A DNA stretch of 63,440 nt from a virus: the IMG/VR virus record IMGVR_UViG_3300017963_000286, positions 1-63,440 of that record, one strand, 5' to 3'. The translations under genes and the position numbers were made by a program. The notes beneath the pieces are model-generated. The model had not been told where the DNA came from, did not search any database, and worked only from the letters and a program-made list of their open reading frames with translations. Below are positions 2,524 through 56,766 of this stretch, in pieces. Position 1 is the stretch's first letter; the number at the start of each line of letters is the position of its first letter.

Positions 2524-4005
2524 TTACCCCTGATGTGCCGACTCAGTTTTGACCTCGGCAGCGTCCATGAACATCTTGGCTATCTGTTTGCCGAGCTCGC
2601 CTGGGAACACATCCATAGCAGCTCTGGCGCGGCGATGGGCCTTTTCGCGACTCGCCTTACTGCCGCCTCGGGCGATTGCGTTAGCCATGATCTTCGCAAG
2701 CTGTAAAGCCTTCGCGTCCGAACCGTTGGCTTTCATCATGATGTCGTCCATGCGCTCATAATCTTTGTCGCCTGGACGCTTGCCCTTGATGTCCTTGTAT
2801 CCGAGGAAGGTCGTGGCGCCCTCGTCGATCTCGGCATCTTGCAGACTGCTCAATTCCTCAAGCATGCCATCGATCATGCCCTCGATACTCTCGCTCCGTC
2901 GACCGGCCGAGGCTCGCATGATCGCCTTTTGAATCTCCCAGTAGCCATCCTCGATATTGTCGAGGGTAGCCGCGACATCGTCGTGACCATTCTGATTTGC
3001 CGTCGCCCGCATGTCATCGATGGCCTTGAACATGCGCTTGGCCACGCCATTGTAGCTGGACGAGCGCGCCGGCTTCTCGGCCGGCTCAGCAGGATATTCG
3101 TCCTCGTCGACTACCTCGGGGGCATCGTGGTCGACTTCGTCGTCGCCTTCGAACGCCTCGCCGTAGTGGCCCGTCGGCTTGACACCCTCGTCTCGCGCCT
3201 TGCCAGCGAGCCACAGCGTCACTTCAGACTTGCGTAATTGCGTGATTTCTTCTCGGGACGAAATCTGCATCACGACAAAATTGGAGGCGTTCCGCTTGCC
3301 GCTTGCCGGGATCGCCGCGAAGTCACTGCCTGGAACCATAAGGACGTCGACCCCGTCGATCTTCGTCCATGCGGCGTCCCAAACAGGAGGGTTAGATGCC
3401 TCGCTGATCCCAAACAGACGCGCGACCTCCTCGTCCGTCGGCTCTGCGTCAGCATCGTCGCAGCAGCACTCCTCCTGCTCCTTGGGGGCAAGCCCGAGGC
3501 TCTGCATGACGACATCTTTCTTGGGATCGACATGCATCGAGTCGGCATCCATGAAGCTCGGCAGACCGGCCTGGACGTTGATCCAATCCCAGTCAGTCAC
3601 CTCACCATCCGGGTCATGCTTGGTCTCCGTGTCGACGCCGCCTGGAAGGTCTACGCGGAATCCATAGACCTTCAGAGTAGATCCATCATCCATCGTGATC
3701 AGCTTGCTATCCATCGGCGAGAGTTGGTCTGGGTCAAGTTTGATCCCCGTCTCCTCCTCGACCTCTCGAAGAGCCGCTTCGACAGGGGTTTCGCCCGGGT
3801 CTGCGTGGCCGCCGGGAAGCGTCCATTTTCCATTATCGTTACGCTTGCCCATGCAAAGCCCGCCATTTGAAAAGATGGCGACCTTGCAGACAACGCGGTC
3901 GGCTTCCGGCTCATCTCCCTCGATCAGACGACGGCGTCCGCTTTTGAGACCGCTCAGCGATAGGCCGAAGTTGCTTTCAGCGAATAGATTTTTGATCCTG
4001 TGCAT
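2524..4005 (-). CDS. Nudix hydrolase fused to a long C-terminal region; candidate packaged internal protein
   Basis: 493 aa. Residues 36-150 form a Nudix domain with a complete Nudix box at 66-88 (GHADPGET ... REVEEETGI), so hydrolysis of a nucleoside-diphosphate-linked substrate is expected. The substrate cannot be read from the sequence. The C-terminal 340 residues are unassigned, acidic, and end in a helical Lys/Ala segment. The N-terminus is a basic leader ending RRRLIE before GDE, which matches the cleavage-site pattern of T4-type prohead proteases, so the protein may enter the head and be injected. GGAGAG precedes the ATG. Phage Nudix proteins elsewhere act on ADP-ribose, NAD or mRNA caps. 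Any such role here is inference. Confidence 0.75.
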   Translation of the reverse strand: MHRIKNLFAESNFGLSLSGLKSGRRRLIEGDEPEADRVVCKVAIFSNGGLCMGKRNDNGKWTLPGGHADPGETPVEAALREVEEETGIKLDPDQLSPMDSKLITMDDGSTLKVYGFRVDLPGGVDTETKHDPDGEVTDWDWINVQAGLPSFMDADSMHVDPKKDVVMQSLGLAPKEQEECCCDDADAEPTDEEVARLFGISEASNPPVWDAAWTKIDGVDVLMVPGSDFAAIPASGKRNASNFVVMQISSREEITQLRKSEVTLWLAGKARDEGVKPTGHYGEAFEGDDEVDHDAPEVVDEDEYPAEPAEKPARSSSYNGVAKRMFKAIDDMRATANQNGHDDVAATLDNIEDGYWEIQKAIMRASAGRRSESIEGMIDGMLEELSSLQDAEIDEGATTFLGYKDIKGKRPGDKDYERMDDIMMKANGSDAKALQLAKIMANAIARGGSKASREKAHRRARAAMDVFPGELGKQIAKMFMDAAEVKTESAHQG

Positions 4006-5062: not shown

Positions 5063-5575
5063 TCAGCCCGGTTGACCTTCTGATTCTGGATCGTCGCCAC
5101 TCGCGGCTTCGGGAGCGTCAGCCTCTTGGCTCGCCTCAAAAAGACCCGCTAGCATCTCGTATGATGAGCGGACCTTGAAGAAGACGTCATTCAAGACGGG
5201 GATGGCCTGATCGCCAAACCGCGCCGATAGCTCCGAAGTCATCTCCTCGATGGCGCTCACCATGCCTTGGGCGGCCGTGAGGTTCATCAGTAGAAAGCTC
5301 ACCGGAACATCGACGCCCGCAGCCGACTGCGGTGCCACGTCAGGAACGGGGTCCTCCCCAGGCTCAAGCCCGACCTCTTCGTCATCAGCCTCGGACGGGG
5401 TCGCTGCAGCCAGAGCCCTCTTTTCGGCGTCTGAGCCAGGCATAACTTGAGGCGCCTCGGGATCGACCTTGGCATCGGCCGCCGCGACCGTGTCGGATTC
5501 TCCCTCTTCGGTCCTGCCATAAATCCTCTCGGATAAGGCGCCAGCTTTCACGAGTTGTCGAATGAGTTCGGACAT
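5063..5575 (-). CDS. Acidic hypothetical protein with possible packaging leader
   Basis: 170 aa. An amphipathic N-terminus (SELIRQLVKAGALSE then RIYG) is followed by a long Asp/Glu/Pro/Ala-rich disordered stretch and a compact helical region near residues 90-145. The L-S-E near residue 16 fits the prohead protease site pattern seen in neighbours, though the leader is less basic. GGAGG lies 8 nt before the ATG. Copy (a) of the 16-bp palindrome lies 39 nt upstream of the start. Confidence 0.55.
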   Translation of the reverse strand: MSELIRQLVKAGALSERIYGRTEEGESDTVAAADAKVDPEAPQVMPGSDAEKRALAAATPSEADDEEVGLEPGEDPVPDVAPQSAAGVDVPVSFLLMNLTAAQGMVSAIEEMTSELSARFGDQAIPVLNDVFFKVRSSYEMLAGLFEASQEADAPEAASGDDPESEGQPG

Positions 5576-5614
5576 TCGCTCAATCCTCCATCGCCCTGTG
5601 GGCCTTCATTCCAT

Positions 5615-5630
5615 GCGAACGCGCGTTCAC
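5615..5630. promoter_or_regulatory. 16-bp palindrome, copy a
   Basis: GCGAACGCGCGTTCAC, core GAACGCGCGTTC intact. It overlaps the stop codon of the CHAP lysin gene and sits 39 nt before the ATG of the downstream gene. Confidence 0.75.
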
Positions 5631-6268
5631 GTGGCGGGCCGAATGCCCCAAGGTCTTAAGAATCCCTTGACTCTCATCGTACCCGAATCGTTGATCCCCC
5701 GCACGCGGCGGTGAACCCCATCCCCCTCGCGGACCACCGATCGGCCATCGCTCGTGTTCCCTTCGATGGTCTCGAACTTACCGGGGGATAATACGCGCGC
5801 GACGATCCCGGCATGTCCCATAGCCGTCGGCTTGCCGTTCTTGAAGTGCTGCCAAATGATCAAATCTCCCGACCGCACATCGAGCGCCTGGATCCTGGCC
5901 GGCATGAGCGTTCGATTCCAGCACGTCATGACGTGCTCCGTTTTGAAAAGCCACGTCTCCGGTCCGTCGACCGCCTTGTCGACCGCTTCAATACAATAGA
6001 AGACAAACGCCAAGCACCACGGCTCACCAACCGCTCGCCCGTCGACCGCCTTCTGAAAGGCTTCGACTTCTGGACCGCGATTTGACCCCTTTTCGCGGAC
6101 CCCAACCCAGTGGGACGCCTCCGCGACAAGCGCCTTCATCTTGTCGTCGATCGTGCGCAGCGTCTGCCTCTTAGATTCTAAGTCTTGGGACTTGTTTTGG
6201 GACCTACTATAAGGCGCCCATCGAAGCTCGTCACGTGTTGGCTCTTTGGCCTTCTTGCTCCGAGTCAT
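5627..6268 (-). CDS. CHAP-domain peptidoglycan hydrolase (endolysin candidate)
   Basis: 213 aa. A Lys/Arg-rich N-terminal 45 residues precede a CHAP (NlpC/P60-like) domain at about 50-210: catalytic Cys near 85 in GEPWCLAFV, His near 152 in GHAGIV, and an acidic/Asn pair in ETIEGNT near 166-172. The WQHF and GDLIIW strands are typical. It would cut the peptide part of peptidoglycan. No signal peptide or membrane segment is seen, so it would need a holin, or it acts as a virion-borne lysin. GGAGG lies 5 nt before the ATG. The gene is within the structural block, not next to obvious lysis genes. Confidence 0.8.
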   Translation of the reverse strand: MTRSKKAKEPTRDELRWAPYSRSQNKSQDLESKRQTLRTIDDKMKALVAEASHWVGVREKGSNRGPEVEAFQKAVDGRAVGEPWCLAFVFYCIEAVDKAVDGPETWLFKTEHVMTCWNRTLMPARIQALDVRSGDLIIWQHFKNGKPTAMGHAGIVARVLSPGKFETIEGNTSDGRSVVREGDGVHRRVRGINDSGTMRVKGFLRPWGIRPAT

Positions 6269-7548: not shown

Positions 7549-8910
7549 CTAAAGTCCGCTGAGCGACCGCGCCAGCGCGGTTATCTCGCGGTCCTCGCCG
7601 AGACCAAAGCAACGCTTGATCTCTTCTTCGGTCGGCTCATCAGACGCGGCGTCGACGGGTGCCTGGTCCTGACTGGACCCTGGGAGTTTGCGAATCCATG
7701 CTGTCGCCTGCTCGAGGGCGTCGCCTGCGCCGGTCGAATCGCCCGAGGACAGGCGCAACAACGCGCCAGACACCATCTGGAGAACCGTACCCATGTCGGG
7801 GTCCTCGGCCTTGGTCGCGTCCATCGAAGCCTTGGCCATATCCTGCGCTGCCTTCTCGACAGCCGCAGACGAATCCTTGCTTTCAGTCACCGCTCTCCGC
7901 GACCGCGCCTCGTCGATCCCGGGCACCACAAAATATCGCGTCGTCAGTTTCTTTTCGTTCTTCAATGCCGACGACGTCCTGTAGTAGAAGTCGGAACCCG
8001 CGATGAATCCAGGGATAGTCATCGGATACATGCTGTACTTATCCCGGACGACGATCGTGCGAGTAGCTTCCTTGCCTGCGCGAGACGCCTTGTCGAACTC
8101 GGCCTTCGGCACTTCCTTGGAGGCGGCGGCGCCCTCAACAATTGCGCCGGTTTTGGGTCGAGATGACTCGTCCATAGAAACCGGCCCGAATTCGACTCTA
8201 CTATTCTCTGATTGCTGCCGGATATTTGTGTATCCCGCCGGCTTCAGGACCTTGTCTACCAAGGATTTCATCATTTTGATCTTTTTTGACTGATCATATG
8301 GGGACACCACGCCATATGCCGTGAAATAGTCTTCGTTCTTCATAGGGGCGCCGAAACTGACGATGAACTTGTCACCGTTATCTAGCGGCATCGTCAGGTC
8401 GTATGTGGCGCCCTTTTTCCTTTTGGACTTGAACCCAAATTTCTTGAGCAATGGAAGCATCTTTGACAGCGCACTATCCAGTGCAGCGATGTCGTAAACA
8501 CCTTCGGATATGACGCGCCCGCGATGATTGATCGACTCGTCCTGCTCTTCATCTTCGTCGGCATCTAGTTCCGACTCGAAATCTCGCGAAGTGTATAGCT
8601 CGCCGTTGCTTGGGATCACGCGCGACTTCTTCAGCATCCATTCCAGTCCCTGGATGTCACGCTCATTTCTCATGTGCCCGTCTTCGACCTCGGGGACCTC
8701 CCCGGTCTCTTCGTCGCTTCTGATCTCGTAGACAGTTTCGCCATCTTCGTTACGGACATCCGCGTAGAATTCACCGCGCTCGTTCTTGTTAATGTAATAG
8801 CCGAAAATTGGCTTTTTGTTTTTCGCCTCAGTAATCGGCTCGGCGCCTTGCAATACGCCTTCCAGTAGCTCGACCTCAGACCGAATGCTGCCGCCGCTGA
8901 TGTGACGCAT
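7549..8910 (-). CDS. Candidate packaged internal protein C (MRHISGGSI leader)
   Basis: 453 aa from the ATG at 8910, which has AGAGG upstream. The N-terminus MRHISGGSI is shared exactly with the next gene. The leader contains L-L-E near residue 17 and I-T-E before AKNKK near residue 28, either of which fits a prohead protease site. The rest is acidic and modular, with an HRG-rich middle and an Ala-rich C-terminus. No catalytic motif recognised. Confidence 0.6.
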   Translation of the reverse strand: MRHISGGSIRSEVELLEGVLQGAEPITEAKNKKPIFGYYINKNERGEFYADVRNEDGETVYEIRSDEETGEVPEVEDGHMRNERDIQGLEWMLKKSRVIPSNGELYTSRDFESELDADEDEEQDESINHRGRVISEGVYDIAALDSALSKMLPLLKKFGFKSKRKKGATYDLTMPLDNGDKFIVSFGAPMKNEDYFTAYGVVSPYDQSKKIKMMKSLVDKVLKPAGYTNIRQQSENSRVEFGPVSMDESSRPKTGAIVEGAAASKEVPKAEFDKASRAGKEATRTIVVRDKYSMYPMTIPGFIAGSDFYYRTSSALKNEKKLTTRYFVVPGIDEARSRRAVTESKDSSAAVEKAAQDMAKASMDATKAEDPDMGTVLQMVSGALLRLSSGDSTGAGDALEQATAWIRKLPGSSQDQAPVDAASDEPTEEEIKRCFGLGEDREITALARSLSGL

Positions 8911-8937
8911 TTCACCGCCTCTGTAATTTTTCATAGG

Positions 8938-9360
8938 TTAGTTCCCCTCTTTGATCTCGGGATGAGCGTCTCGGTAGTTGTCCATGTCGCTATAGGCGTT
9001 CGGGTCGGAATCGACATCGGCATGAATATAATCAGCGATCTGCCTCTCTGAAGGATCGCCGTAAACTGTTGTCTTGCTCCATGATTTTTCAGGACGCCGG
9101 TAGTATAGCTTCGAGGCAGCCATCTCCGGATCGACCTCAAAATTTTTTCCCTTAACCAAATAATACTGCCACGCGTATTTCATCTTTCGATTCATCGAGC
9201 TTGTGGTCGTCACCTTGCCTGGCCTGTCCTTAGTGAACTTCCAGACATCCCCCTTCGCCTCCTGCACGGCATTCTTATGAACCGGATTTTCAGCCTGACT
9301 TATGATGTTCGCTAGCAGTTGAACCTCGGCGAGAATGCTTCCGCCGCTGATGTGACGCAT
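8938..9360 (-). CDS. Candidate packaged internal protein D (MRHISGGSI leader)
   Basis: 140 aa from the ATG at 9360 (GAGG upstream). It begins MRHISGGSI like protein C and has V-Q-E before AKGDVW near residue 36, aligned with the I-T-E before AK of protein C. The two bodies after the site do not look alike, so a common leader appears to have been attached to different cargo. The palindrome copy (b) lies 39 nt upstream of the start. Confidence 0.6.
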   Translation of the reverse strand: MRHISGGSILAEVQLLANIISQAENPVHKNAVQEAKGDVWKFTKDRPGKVTTTSSMNRKMKYAWQYYLVKGKNFEVDPEMAASKLYYRRPEKSWSKTTVYGDPSERQIADYIHADVDSDPNAYSDMDNYRDAHPEIKEGN

Positions 9361-9399
9361 GGGATTGACCCTCGTGTGAATCGCGATTTTGTGAAATAT

Positions 9400-9415
9400 G
9401 CGAACGCGCATTCGC
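9400..9415. promoter_or_regulatory. 16-bp palindrome, copy b (one core mismatch)
   Basis: GCGAACGCGCATTCGC. Intergenic, 11 nt after the AAA ATPase stop and 39 nt before the next ATG, the same distance as copy a. Confidence 0.65.
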
Positions 9416-9426
9416 CCCGGTGGTGA

Positions 9427-10356
9427 TCAGTAGTCGGTCGGCACATCGGCGATGGCATAGCCCTCATCGGACCCGCCGCGCTCGCGCCGCTCGGCCGCCT
9501 CTTTCTGCTCTTCCAGGATCTCGCGCCGCGCTTCCATAATCGCCTGGCGCGGCGAGGCGCCATGGGCGACCACCAATGCGACCACGTCACGGAGCGTCCC
9601 AAACCCGGCGCCTTTAGTGTTGCGCGCCATCGCCTCACAGATGTGATCTGGAATGCGAGCGCCTGCCACGCCCTTGATGTAGGAGTAGCGCTGGTTCAGG
9701 TCCGGCATGGGGCAGTGGATCTTCTCCTCAAAGCGCCCCTTGCGGCGCAGCTTCATCGGCAGCGCCTTCAGATCGTTGACGGTCGCAAGGAAGAGAACAT
9801 GCTGCGGTGCATCCACGCCATCAAGCATCTGGTTCATCCGTTGCGTGCCGCCGTACTTCACAAGCTCGTCAAAATCTTCAAGCACGACGACCACGTCACG
9901 GCGCGCGTCAGACTGCCGGAAGGTCTTCAACGATCTGGTGATCGTCTGTGGATCATAGGCGTAAAAAACCACCTTTCCCTGATCCGCCCACCGCTCGGCC
10001 TCCTCGCGCACCATCGTCGACTTGCCGGACCCAGGAGGTCCATGAAGGACGATCCCACGCTTGTGGAGGATTCCGGATTTCGCATATCGGTCTCTGGCAG
10101 CGAAAAATGAATCTACCGACTCACGAAGCGCGTCGTATGCGCCCCCCGTCATCTCCACGGGGTCGTCGCAGTTGTACTCGAGCTGCTTTAGCCTCGGAAC
10201 GCGCCCCTCCTCGAGCGAATCCCACAGCGTATAAACGCCGGGCTCAACTCCCATCTTGAACCGATGCCCGTGCGCCGGCCTCTGGATCCTTACCTCCAAA
10301 ATGCTTCGAAGGTCTTCGTAGTCCATCGGCTCAACACGATCAAATGGCTCTTTCAT
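9427..10356 (-). CDS. AAA+ ATPase (BCS1/FtsH-like core)
   Basis: 309 aa. Walker A GPPGSGKST at about 106-114, Walker B VVVLEDFDE at 156-164, a sensor-1-type ATVND stretch near 200, and an arginine-finger-like LRRKGRFEEKI near 214-224. This is a single AAA+ module with an N-terminal region of about 90 residues. Such proteins form ring ATPases that remodel proteins or nucleoprotein. A head-assembly or DNA-handling role is inferred from its position beside capsid genes. GGGGAG lies 5 nt before the ATG. Confidence 0.8.
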   Translation of the reverse strand: MKEPFDRVEPMDYEDLRSILEVRIQRPAHGHRFKMGVEPGVYTLWDSLEEGRVPRLKQLEYNCDDPVEMTGGAYDALRESVDSFFAARDRYAKSGILHKRGIVLHGPPGSGKSTMVREEAERWADQGKVVFYAYDPQTITRSLKTFRQSDARRDVVVVLEDFDELVKYGGTQRMNQMLDGVDAPQHVLFLATVNDLKALPMKLRRKGRFEEKIHCPMPDLNQRYSYIKGVAGARIPDHICEAMARNTKGAGFGTLRDVVALVVAHGASPRQAIMEARREILEEQKEAAERRERGGSDEGYAIADVPTDY

Positions 10357-10400
10357 TGGGTCTCCCCAGGGCTTTGAGATTTCTTGAGGCGTTGAGCCCT

Positions 10401-10429
10401 ATTGTCGCGCCTGAGGGGAGATTAGACAA
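10401..10429 (-). promoter_or_regulatory. Possible weak sigma70-like promoter
   Basis: On the minus strand TTGTCT is followed after 17 nt by GACAAT, about 45 nt upstream of the AAA ATPase start. Both boxes are imperfect. Confidence 0.3.
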
Positions 10430-10476
10430 GGGCCGGGCTCCGGGGCTGGGAGGGGCCGCAAGGCTCTCCCGGATCA

Positions 10477-12228
10477 CTAGACCGCCGTGGGGAGGCTGGC
10501 TCTAGGTTTGAAGACGACCCTGGTCTCCAGAAAGTCCGACGGATGAATCTGCGATCTCTTGGCGTGGAAGGTGTCAGCAGAAACCTCCAAACCGAGCCCC
10601 GAAAGATACGCGACTACGTCGTCCGCCATCATGTAGTTCGTCTGCTCGACGCGGAGATTTTTACAGAAAATGACGCCGAACTTGGTCGTTCGTGCGGCAA
10701 CGAAGCGAAGTACCGGGTAGATCAGCGATTCCATGAAATCGGCATAACCCGAGAAGTAGTGAGGCTGACCTGGGTCATCTGAGTAAAACTCTTTGACCCA
10801 GTACGGCGGACTCGTCATGACGGCCTCGAACGATTCCGGAATTCCGCTGATCGCCCCGGCCGCGACATGAGCCGCATTTGCATGAATCACCTTGGCGTTC
10901 TCAGCACGCTCGCCGAGCATGTCGATCCATTTACGCAATTCGACGATGAGCGATCGATTGAGGTCGACCCCGATGTAGCGACCCGAGCATGCCAGCGTCC
11001 CAGTAAGGCGAGCGCCCCATCCCGCAAAAGGATCAAAAACGGTCCATCCCGGCTCGAATCCCATCGCTTTCAGTGTCTCGATCGCAAGGCGCACTGGGAA
11101 CCACGAGACCGTTCCGACCCGAAAGTTGCTTCTCGCTGCCTTCACCGCAGTCTTGACGCTAGCCTCTGTGCCATCAGTAACGATGGAATTAGCTCGCATA
11201 AACTCCCCAGGCGACACCTTCATGTCGTAGCGCGCCTCAAGAAAAGATCGGATCGTCAATTTCAAGGCCCAGTCGACGTCACGATTCCTTCCAGCGTCGA
11301 GCGCGGCCAGCACTTTGGCGGGATCAACCTCGACCAGAGAGATGTTCCGCGACCGCATCATGTGGTCCTTGCACAAAGACCGCGCATATGACTCTCGACC
11401 GCAGATCAAACAGAGAGAATCGACCGTCGATGACGCCTGGCCGTCATCCGTCCGAAACAAGGTTAGGCGGGACGACTCGTACTCGCGAAACTTCCGATCG
11501 CAGCGCATCCCCTCGCTGTCGGCATAGATGAGGTCAAGCCACCGAATCGAGTTTTCACGGTTGGTAAACCGGATTTCGGTCTTGACCCCCGTGGGCCGGA
11601 TCGTGAATTCCCGACCCTCGACCATTCCAGTCATCCTCGTCACGTCAGCGCCGACCGCTCGAATCAGAATCGGAGCCTTCATGCCCAGGAATGCCCGGCC
11701 GTCATTCATTCCGATATGGCCGTCGGTGTCCCAGAGTCCGCGCAGAAGGTGCGGCCTGAATTCCGCTGGCAGATCAGGGTAGGCGAGATTTACTGACTTC
11801 TTTCCAGACACGCCGCCCATCTTCCGACTGAACCATCCGGCGACCTCCACGCTACTAAAGTGGGCGCGATGGCCTCCGGCGATGAGGGTAATCGGAACGG
11901 ATGGCATGATCATGTCGCGCACGCGCTCTGTGAGATCCCGATCCCCCGAAACGAAAAAGCACCGCGCCGCGACGCGATTGCCCGCCTTGGTGACCGCCTG
12001 CTGCGCCCTGACATGGCCGTCGCCCATCATGGCTCCGAGAAGCCAAGCTTTCTGCGGAGTCCAAGCGTCGCTCATGTCTAAGGCGATGGCATGACGCCTG
12101 TTCGAGAGATCTGCTCCCTCGCGCTTCGCCTTGCGCCTCCACCGCATATAGCAGTTTCTGCAAAGGCCGCGGCGCAAGGTCGCCGACGGCGTTGAGCATT
12201 CGGAGCACGTAACTGCGACGTCATGCAT
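10477..12228 (-). CDS. LAGLIDADG homing endonuclease fused to a DNA amino-methyltransferase
   Basis: 583 aa from the ATG at 12228, which has GGAGG about 10 nt upstream. Order: zinc knuckle (C8-x2-C11, C23-x2-C26); two LAGLIDADG helices, LLGAMMGDG at 63-71 and LRGLWDTDG at 162-170, both with their acidic residue; a second Cys cluster (CLICG ... C) near 270-290; then an adenine/N4-cytosine methyltransferase with motif I FDPFAGWGARLTG near 398 and catalytic SPPYW near 473. The domain order I then IV is unlike the DPPY enzymes at 26-30 kb. Endonuclease and protective methylase in one chain would resemble a self-contained restriction-type or homing unit. It sits between the capsid gene terminator and the AAA gene, as free-standing homing genes often do. 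Confidence 0.75.
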   Translation of the reverse strand: MHDVAVTCSECSTPSATLRRGLCRNCYMRWRRKAKREGADLSNRRHAIALDMSDAWTPQKAWLLGAMMGDGHVRAQQAVTKAGNRVAARCFFVSGDRDLTERVRDMIMPSVPITLIAGGHRAHFSSVEVAGWFSRKMGGVSGKKSVNLAYPDLPAEFRPHLLRGLWDTDGHIGMNDGRAFLGMKAPILIRAVGADVTRMTGMVEGREFTIRPTGVKTEIRFTNRENSIRWLDLIYADSEGMRCDRKFREYESSRLTLFRTDDGQASSTVDSLCLICGRESYARSLCKDHMMRSRNISLVEVDPAKVLAALDAGRNRDVDWALKLTIRSFLEARYDMKVSPGEFMRANSIVTDGTEASVKTAVKAARSNFRVGTVSWFPVRLAIETLKAMGFEPGWTVFDPFAGWGARLTGTLACSGRYIGVDLNRSLIVELRKWIDMLGERAENAKVIHANAAHVAAGAISGIPESFEAVMTSPPYWVKEFYSDDPGQPHYFSGYADFMESLIYPVLRFVAARTTKFGVIFCKNLRVEQTNYMMADDVVAYLSGLGLEVSADTFHAKRSQIHPSDFLETRVVFKPRASLPTAV

Positions 12229-12300
12229 TGGCTTTGTCTCCTCCATGTTTCGGTCGTTTTGCTTGGAGGAGATTGCCCGATCAGGCGCGTAACGTCCACC

Positions 12301-12342
12301 TCTTTTCAAAAAGAAACAGCGTCGCCGTTACCAGCGACGCTG
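12301..12342 (-). terminator. Rho-independent terminator after the major capsid gene
   Basis: Perfect 9-bp stem CAGCGTCGC / GCGACGCTG with an 8-nt loop, followed on the minus strand by TTTCTTTTT. It starts about 18 nt beyond the capsid gene stop. Confidence 0.85.
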
Positions 12343-12360
12343 TCTAGAAGGTCAATGATT

Positions 12361-13779
12361 TCAGAGGCTGGTCACGTTGATGGTTCCGAAAAACTCCGGT
12401 CTAACCATCTTGGTCGCGTACCGCGTGCGAAGGCCCTTGCGGTATTGCATGTCGTTAGGGTCTAAGAACGTGGCGGTGACCTGCAGCGGCACATACGGCG
12501 CCCAGACGTAACCGGCATCGAGGAACGTCGGTCCCTTGTAGCCGATCAGGATCTTTCCGGATCCCGAGCCGCTTCCGGGGTTCACGACCGGGAAGAACGG
12601 ATCTTTGTAGAGACCGTACTTCGCGCTCACCGTGCCAGCGTACATGACGCCGAAGGTGTGGGGCTGCTGTACCGGAGCCTGCGGCGCTTCGCTCGGCGCG
12701 GCGACGGCCGGGCGGAAGTCGCCGTGGGTCGTCAGCTGCTCGAAGTACGCGCAAACATCCGGCGAGGAGACGGCGAAGTTCGCCGGGCCACGCAGGCTGT
12801 TCTTGTGGATACGGTTGGCGCCGATCGTCAGTGCCGTGATCAGGTTCCGATAGTGGTCGATGGCCGAGGCGCCCGAGGGAACCGCGACATCGTAGGTGCC
12901 CGAGTAGCCAGTCGCGCCGAGGCGCAGGTCATCGATGATCTCGCGGTCGAGTTCCAGGGCGATCTCGGCGGCGATGCCGGCGACGAGCTCGGCTTCGGCG
13001 TCGAGGCCGTGGAATGCCTTGAGGTCATCGGCTGCTTCCGAGCACCACAGGGCCTTGAGCTTGCGGCTCTTGGCCTTGATCTCGAGAAGCTCGATGTCGA
13101 TGTTGACCTGAGGAATGTTGGAGTTGCACTCCATGTTGTAGTCGTACTCGACGACCACTTCGACGCCGCCGCCGACCGGAGACGTGTACGCGAGAGCGAT
13201 CGCGCCGGTGGTGTAGTCGATGGTTCCCGAAACTCCCGTCCCCGAGATGTTCCCGAGGCCGTCATCCGTTCCGACGACGGTGTCGGCAGTGACGGTGACC
13301 GTCGATGCCTTGACCGGCGTGAAATCGAGGGTGGAGGAGAAGTTCGATCCGGCTCCGGTTCCGACCACTTCCTCGTCGATGTGCTCCGACGAATAGTAGG
13401 CGTTGAAGTCCTTGATGAGCTTCTGTCCGGCAGTGACCTTGCCCTTGGTCGTGCCGTACTTGAGCTCGTAATAGAAAATGCCGCCGATCGGGGCCGTCAT
13501 CGGCTGAACCGAGACGATCTCGTTGGCGATGAGGGTCGGGAAGACGCGACGCAGAACCGGGAACACAAACTTAAGGAAGGAGCCGACGTTGGTCGACTTC
13601 GTCTCTTCGTTCAGGTTCTGAAGGTATTGGCTCTGGTTCTCATAGAGCACCGCCATGACGTTCTTCGTGTGCTCAGTGCGGACGCCCTTGAGCAGGGGCT
13701 GCCACTTTTGTACCAACCCCTGGACGTAGCTCTGATCTTGGATCGACCGAGCTTCCGTCAACTGCTGACGCCTTTTCAT
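12361..13779 (-). CDS. Major capsid protein, T4 gp23-like
   Basis: 472 aa. The N-terminal third carries the recognisable gp23-type segments FVFPVLRRVFPTLIANEIV and VQPMTAPIGGIFYYE (residues about 68-107), and the protein keeps a beta-rich HK97-fold layout to its end. MKRRQQLTE before ARS at the N-terminus is a possible prohead protease site. It is the last gene before a strong terminator, and AAGGAGGT 8 nt before the ATG is the best ribosome site in the region, fitting the need for high copy number. Upstream is the protease/scaffold gene, the usual order in this virus group. Confidence 0.9.
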   Translation of the reverse strand: MKRRQQLTEARSIQDQSYVQGLVQKWQPLLKGVRTEHTKNVMAVLYENQSQYLQNLNEETKSTNVGSFLKFVFPVLRRVFPTLIANEIVSVQPMTAPIGGIFYYELKYGTTKGKVTAGQKLIKDFNAYYSSEHIDEEVVGTGAGSNFSSTLDFTPVKASTVTVTADTVVGTDDGLGNISGTGVSGTIDYTTGAIALAYTSPVGGGVEVVVEYDYNMECNSNIPQVNIDIELLEIKAKSRKLKALWCSEAADDLKAFHGLDAEAELVAGIAAEIALELDREIIDDLRLGATGYSGTYDVAVPSGASAIDHYRNLITALTIGANRIHKNSLRGPANFAVSSPDVCAYFEQLTTHGDFRPAVAAPSEAPQAPVQQPHTFGVMYAGTVSAKYGLYKDPFFPVVNPGSGSGSGKILIGYKGPTFLDAGYVWAPYVPLQVTATFLDPNDMQYRKGLRTRYATKMVRPEFFGTINVTSL

Positions 13780-56674: not shown

Positions 56675-56680
56675 ATGGAG

Positions 56681-56766
56681 AGATGCGGGCTGGATTCGAA
56701 CCAGCGATAGAGCAAGCGCTCGCGGGCTTTGCAAACCCGCCCCTTCGGCCGCTCGGGCACCGCATC
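56681..56766 (-). tRNA. Class-II-shaped tRNA with Cys anticodon GCA
   Basis: 86 nt. Acceptor GATGCGG/CCGCATC (7 perfect pairs) with discriminator U; D arm CCC/GGG with a serine-like TGCCCGAGCGGCCGAAGGGG; anticodon stem CGGGT/GCCCG with loop TTGCAAA, giving anticodon GCA (Cys); a long variable arm GAGC-GCTT-GCTC; T arm GCTGG/CCAGC with TTCGAAT. CCA is not encoded. Cys identity is supported by GCA and U73, but ordinary tRNA-Cys has a short variable loop, whereas this one has the long arm of Ser/Leu tRNAs. Confidence 0.85.

Follow-up and report, generated by a model that had tools for sequence, protein, structure and literature searches.

Why would a phage encode a homing-type endonuclease and a DNA methyltransferase as a single polypeptide, and do so directly behind its major capsid gene? 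This question is raised by protein P0001, encoded in the IMG/VR virus record IMGVR_UViG_3300017963_000286, positions 1 to 63,440 of which were analysed and are referred to as the window throughout. We consider it quite probable that its gene is a mobile bifunctional element as such, and on balance we favour its reading as a homing-type element at the capsid 3' end, which combines a nuclease and its own methyltransferase in one bifunctional chain.

Architecture of the fusion protein

The earlier note on this DNA, made from the letters alone, had described two intact LAGLIDADG helices and a SPPYW-type methyltransferase in one chain of 583 amino acids (aa), with two Cys clusters between them. P0001 is indeed specified by one unbroken open reading frame (ORF) on the minus strand (10477-12228; Table 1), which starts with ATG and contains no internal stop or frameshift, and both folds could be modelled. 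The concern that two separate genes had been merged by a sequencing error was ruled out, as the single ORF is identical across three contigs. Since the 8.7 kb of DNA surrounding the gene recur with zero mismatches in two other IMG/VR contigs, P0001 is no assembly chimera of one sample, and chance pairing is excluded by full-length relatives with the same architecture, e.g. L026 (28% identity). A ribosome-binding motif (GGAGGAG, 12244-12238) lies 9 nt 5' of the ATG; the in-frame TTG at 12309 is a less probable start codon, and a candidate internal start near residue 291 (AAGGA before ATGATG) could give rise to a putative methyltransferase-only product.

Pfam assigns the nuclease half to LAGLIDADG_3 (22.8 bits, cut-off 22.5), and PHROG 4645 (endonuclease) matches with E 2.7e-8. 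The AlphaFold model, built with a 31-row alignment, reached predicted local distance difference test (pLDDT) values mostly above 85 for residues 55-255, with weaker values for the zinc-finger and linker parts. Fold comparison of residues 56-260 retrieved PI-PfuI (Z 18.9 over 190 residues), I-Tsp061I (16.4) and I-DmoI (about 16), confirming the LAGLIDADG fold, and D70 and D169, the Asp residues of the two motifs, are both present at positions that are invariant in alignment A3. The claim of two intact motifs thus held, while that of two intervening Cys clusters applied to C273/C276/C286/H289 only; C8/C11/C23/C26 is N-terminal and matches the HNH-associated PHROG 5351 weakly (E 0.0013). Double zinc fingers are also present in L162, L165 and L266.

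For the C-terminal half, pLDDT values mostly exceeded 90 (residues 375-575) and fold comparison revealed class I S-adenosylmethionine methyltransferases with Z 16-18. The PF01555 score of 24.2 bits falls just below the cut-off of 26.7, which the fused relatives L164, L165 and L266 pass, and PHROG 12517 matches with E 2.8e-12. P0001 carries the motif I (DPF/C-x-G) and motif IV ((S/T/D)PP(Y/F)) of the N6/N4 amino-DNA-methyltransferases (PF01555 clan) and is predicted to be one of them. Relatives of this half, termed the METHYLTRANSFERASE family, were collected by an IMG/VR alignment search from which the best 80 of about 400 matches were kept; the 57 distinct members have D-P-x-x-G-x-x-x-R and P-P-(Y/F)-x-x-x-E-x-Y in common, including E480 and Y482 just past motif IV, conserved in 57/57 aligned members. 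With both active-site signatures present, neither domain of P0001 looks dead.

Table 1 Features of the fusion gene, its surroundings and the chimeric relative in L266 (window coordinates unless a locus is named)
Feature	Coordinates	Strand	Evidence or remark
Fusion gene P0001: zinc finger, LAGLIDADG_3 nuclease, zinc finger, amino-methyltransferase	10477..12228	-	583 aa
N-terminal Cys4 zinc-finger-like motif, C8/C11/C23/C26, before LAGLIDADG	12151..12207	-	sequence; weak PHROG 5351 match
LAGLIDADG domain, residues 55-255, single-chain two-motif type	11464..12066	-	Pfam LAGLIDADG_3, AlphaFold, fold search
LAGLIDADG motif 1 LLGAMMGDG, residues 63-71, catalytic-position Asp D70	12016..12042	-	sequence
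LAGLIDADG motif 2 LRGLWDTDG, residues 162-170, catalytic-position Asp D169	11719..11745	-	sequence
Second zinc-finger-like motif, C273/C276/C286/H289, between both enzymes	11362..11412	-	sequence; common to L026
Methyltransferase core, residues 375-575, motif order X-I-IV	10504..11106	-	profiles, AlphaFold, fold search
Motif I DPFAGWGAR, residues 399-407	11008..11034	-	D399, P400, G403, R407 in 57/57 aligned members
Motif IV TSPPYW, residues 472-477	10798..10815	-	P474, P475 in 57/57 aligned members
T4-type major capsid protein gene, directly upstream of fusion gene	12361..13779	-	PHROG 138, E 1.1e-70
Strong terminator hairpin separating capsid gene from fusion gene	12314..12345	-	14 pairs, T-rich tail
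AAA ATPase-like gene, downstream of fusion gene	9427..10356	-	not beside capsid gene in relatives
L266 chimera: GIY-YIG-type nuclease, Asp-less LAGLIDADG, zinc fingers, methyltransferase	L266:5661-7907	+	

Position and probable mobility of the element

Counting the window, LAGLIDADG_3 fusions were found in six distinct phages (the window, L026, L162, L164, L165 and L266), of which L162, L164 and L165 came from the nuclease-half search and L266 from a capsid-gene search; a final viral scan for further fused members yielded no new ones. In addition, LAGLIDADG_2 and the methyltransferase share one chain in 17 distinct proteins (Pfam, mostly 40-150 bits; L027, L028, L029, L031, L039, L046, L047, L049/L052, L056, L058, L061, L064, L094, L097, L100, L128 and L005 = L063). 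In the nuclease-half tree, the LAGLIDADG domain of the window falls into a starred clade of ten members in which fused and solo enzymes are mixed, namely the six fusions and the solo enzymes L156, L158, L161 and L169. The tree of the methyltransferase half splits the fusions into the pair P0001/L026 and a separate starred clade of the remaining four; a single methyltransferase clade for all six was not rejected by the approximately unbiased (AU) test (p 0.32).

All ten genes of the nuclease clade are located directly behind a T4-type capsid gene, and as the domain searches made no use of the capsid gene, this position is free of bait bias for nine of them, L266 being the exception. LAGLIDADG_3 fusions found by domain searches were capsid-adjacent in 4/4 loci with gaps of 116-244 bp, a number that L266 and the window bring to six, and fusions of the methyltransferase with HNH nucleases occupied this position in 6/6 loci from two lineages. 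As controls, LAGLIDADG_2-methyltransferase fusions (0/23 loci) and other loci of the methyltransferase family (0/87) were never capsid-adjacent; some loci are near-copies, and these counts do not represent independent events.

A capsid-gene search, for which 80 relatives were taken in, revealed a LAGLIDADG_3 gene right behind the capsid gene in 14 of them and none in most others. The occupied locus L290 and the empty locus L288 are 98.8% identical until 7 nt before the end of the capsid gene, and their match restarts at the end of the insert with the last 6 nt of the L288 gene and extends over 2.9 kb at 97.5%. The insert of about 1.07 kb, which encodes a solo LAGLIDADG_3 relative, brings a new capsid stop codon and uses the old capsid CTC-TGA as its own stop. 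The same pattern of clean insertion was repeated in the pairs L291/L288, L274/L272 and L161/L310. As regards fusions, the gene 3' of the L266 fusion directly follows the capsid gene in empty relatives, as do the genes shortly after the L165 fusion.

Mobility of the homing element considered in the earlier note is backed by the capsid-3' position, by clean insertion of solo relatives and by gene order for L165 and L266, but not by an occupied/empty pair for the window itself. Its proposed comparison of the capsid/AAA junction in relatives lacking the gene did retrieve such relatives (58-69% capsid identity); as the AAA gene is missing there too, they do not mark the exact insertion boundary in the window. 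In L008, L010 and L011, a homologue of the window gene at 5627-6268 lies within about 0.55 kb behind the capsid gene. Two further ideas were rejected: the AAA gene was dropped as part of a shared cassette, as no other relatives were found, and the idea that capsid 3' ends were recoded to resist cleavage was discarded since codon variants do not track occupancy (L289 resembles L288, and L290 resembles L283).

Several other genes were noted at this site. An ORF right 3' of the capsid gene in L009 (4957-5298, +) reads by eye like a Mom-type DNA-modification acyltransferase, and other DNA-modifying genes may therefore use the same site. A short ORF behind the capsid gene in L010 (7268-7492, +) features a zinc finger resembling that of the fusion protein and is perhaps a remnant of an element, and L169 harbours two LAGLIDADG_3 genes (2914-3864 and ~5149-6076, +) near one capsid gene, with a conserved gene cluster member, c0, between them.

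Replacement of the nuclease

Both LAGLIDADG Asp residues are kept in P0001 and in every other fused relative readable at these positions except L266. There, GRC stands in place of GDG and DAKG in place of DTDG, so that both catalytic Asp are lost from a region that is still recognisable (PHROG 4645, E 2.1e-6). The L266 protein has gained an N-terminal homing nuclease (PHROG 314, E 7e-10), whose GIY-YIG class was read from motifs, with a NUMOD3-like stretch beside it, and has retained the zinc fingers and methyltransferase motifs. In L063 (= L005), the first LAGLIDADG copy has decayed (GNG, DRG; residues 73-185) and the second is intact. Nuclease and methyltransferase trees of the LAGLIDADG_2 fusions are correlated with r 0.72 (0.79 without two long branches), a value that 0/5000 permutations reached, and the largest subclade gave r 0.66 (78/5000 permutations). 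Taken together, these comparisons of sequences point to joint selection for the methyltransferase and a functional nuclease rather than for a passenger.

The L266 protein also bears on the possibility that the fusion is a domesticated DNA-binding regulator or marker, in which the nuclease is silent and the LAGLIDADG part only steers methylation. An Asp-less LAGLIDADG region that was nonetheless retained, presumably for binding, would suit such a role, but L266 replaced its lost nuclease instead of going without one, and both Asp are kept in the window protein and the other readable fused relatives. We thus regard this explanation as very improbable.

Many members of the METHYLTRANSFERASE family are long proteins, and nuclease partners other than LAGLIDADG occur repeatedly. 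HNH/endonuclease VII domains accompany the methyltransferase in L110 and L132 (PHROG 1035 and 3322, E 1e-15 to 1e-22), and a Vsr domain stands beside it in L019 (Pfam 27.3 bits). Other members are putatively Vsr-like or PD-(D/E)XK-like, judged by motif alone except where profiles agree, as for L037, which matches phage HNH/homing endonuclease families. ParB_N was detected in L053, L081 and L095. In L084 (2705-4549, +), L055, L089, L044 and L079, the N-terminal region reads, by motif only, as duplicated PD-(D/E)XK-like domains (GE..FD..VKT); for this fold in L084, the AlphaFold model was moderate and the fold search listed the methyltransferase part alone. Among 85,000 bacterial and archaeal species genomes, five methyltransferase relatives matched the search pattern, four of them ParB-type (by eye) and one PD-(D/E)XK-type (by motif). 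None of these five is a LAGLIDADG fusion, and the fusion therefore looks virus-restricted at the sensitivity of this search; a plasmid search gave no match.

The earlier note had compared the protein with type IIG restriction enzymes carrying a homing-type nuclease in place of the usual PD-(D/E)xK domain. The one-chain comparison is apt, since P0001 joins nuclease and methyltransferase in one polypeptide, whereas the replacement was framed too narrowly in view of the HNH, GIY-YIG and Vsr-like partners. P0001 differs from type IIG enzymes in that it lacks an amino-terminal PD-(D/E)XK domain, its nuclease being LAGLIDADG by Pfam, PHROGs and fold, and in that it is virus-borne at a homing hot spot. 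A phage-borne restriction-modification enzyme of this kind, mainly directed against competing phages or plasmids and placed at a merely permissive capsid-3' site, would account for the single chain, the interchangeable nuclease classes and the match of PADLOC type II methyltransferase models to P0001 (E ~4e-8). Against it stands the strict capsid-3' position, which solo homing endonucleases from the nuclease clade of P0001 also occupy, and we consider this reading quite improbable.

Proposed role of the methyltransferase

In the favoured explanation, the P0001 gene would be a free-standing homing element that occupies the capsid 3' end in a T4-type phage. The LAGLIDADG half of the protein, aided by the zinc fingers, would recognise and cut an extended target. 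In element-free phages, this target would most likely be the conserved 3' end of the capsid gene, and repair of the cut would copy the gene in, as the insertion pattern in relatives suggests. The methyltransferase half would be tethered to the same DNA-binding modules as the nuclease and most likely mark the same or similar sites, which would leave resident and newly copied genomes uncut. The explanation is weakest in this assignment of the methyltransferase, for which self-protection is no more than plausible; given a mobile bifunctional element, we place self-marking at slightly less than an even chance. As a complete proposal, we put forward only tentatively a self-marking homing enzyme with shared DNA-binding modules, where methylation would cover the homing target in carriers, competitors without the element would be cut, and the nuclease could be replaced; that the replaceable classes would comprise LAGLIDADG_2, LAGLIDADG_3, HNH, GIY-YIG and Vsr-like nucleases is an equally tentative part of it. 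The single chain, the shared DNA-binding modules and the recurrence with different nucleases favour self-marking.

Several observations weigh against this explanation. Solo endonucleases at this site do without a methyltransferase, and insertion at the stop codon of the capsid gene already breaks the presumed target, so that there is no evident need for protection by methylation. Members of the methyltransferase family also stand alone in phages (~330 aa), which fits an anti-restriction role, and the trees are compatible with one or more fusion origins (AU p 0.32). Furthermore, the capsid relatives included no close counterpart of the window with an empty site; the nearest ones (58-69% identity) lack the fusion and the AAA gene, and other window genes are missing from them as well.

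Some of these observations lead to a serious, if unlikely, rival, namely a homing element with cargo, in which the nuclease spreads the gene, the methyltransferase modifies short motifs against host restriction, and the fusion secures co-inheritance only. Methyltransferases of this family without an extra domain occur in many environmental phages and in named Staphylococcus and Mammaliicoccus herelleviruses, solo endonucleases at the capsid site need no methyltransferase, and the Mom-like DNA-modification ORF of L009, assigned by eye, is found behind a capsid gene. However, cargo does not require a single chain, whereas the methyltransferase is repeatedly fused in frame to nucleases of several classes, and the congruent domain trees of the LAGLIDADG_2 fusions likewise speak against this rival.

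Relation to known systems and significance

The domain pair as such is already known from nine actinophage methylases: Gosselin et al. 2023 (PMC9957025) described Taj_79 and eight related DNA methylases whose LAGLIDADG domain is not part of an intein, considered restriction-modification by a single peptide but doubted it, and stated that LAGLIDADG nucleases, which are known as homing enzymes, had not been described in restriction-modification systems. Taj_79 is the nearest precedent for P0001, as a phage protein that combines a LAGLIDADG domain with a DNA methyltransferase and involves no intein splicing. However, its methyltransferase is of another class, with the permuted order DPPYN...DPFAGSG and is interrupted by a short LAGLIDADG piece of 139 aa, whereas P0001 has the order I-IV, a full two-motif LAGLIDADG ahead of an uninterrupted methyltransferase, and a gene behind the capsid gene. 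An intein or a Taj_79-type insertion was ruled out, as the entire LAGLIDADG domain (55-255) precedes the methyltransferase core (375-575). Within the open-access publications covered by the literature searches, PMC9957025 was the only description of a homing endonuclease-methyltransferase fusion, and none was found of a capsid-site fusion, a swappable-nuclease family or a homing endonuclease-methyltransferase element.

In T4, the free-standing homing endonuclease gene segD lies between genes 23 and 24 (PMC2988022), and clusters of homing endonuclease genes occur near capsid genes (PMC10448857); the term "methyl" has 0 occurrences in both papers. The likeness lies in a nuclease gene directly behind a T4-type capsid gene and in its presence or absence between relatives, whereas SegD is a GIY-YIG enzyme in opposite orientation. 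Among named database entries, the nuclease half is closest (25-27% identity) to I-MsaII-type LAGLIDADG enzymes from Staphylococcus phage recA introns, which differ in being intron-encoded and solo, with helix-turn-helix modules in place of the zinc fingers of P0001. In MegaTevs, a single chain comprises both GIY-YIG and LAGLIDADG domains. The L266 protein unites the same two domains but is natural, has lost the LAGLIDADG catalytic Asp and also carries a methyltransferase, unlike those engineered nucleases (discussed in PMC5751168).

The results outline a widespread phage family that pairs homing-type nucleases with one methyltransferase family and replaces the nuclease upon decay, and for T4-type phages they single out the capsid 3' end as a hot spot where homing recurs. 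The long-discussed link between homing and restriction-modification becomes directly testable, and if true, a self-marking enzyme would represent restriction-modification logic assembled from homing parts. The natural nuclease-methyltransferase chimeras, together with the one GIY-YIG/LAGLIDADG chimera, are possible protein tools.

Further features of the window

A prohead protease gene is also located upstream of the fusion gene, and no sigma-70-type promoter was found within 9300-12700. Two neighbouring unknown genes (8938-9411 and 7549-8934, -) both begin with the leader MRHISGGSI-xx-EV-x-LL, which may direct internal head proteins to the head. A single tRNA-Cys gene is present at 56680-56766 (-).
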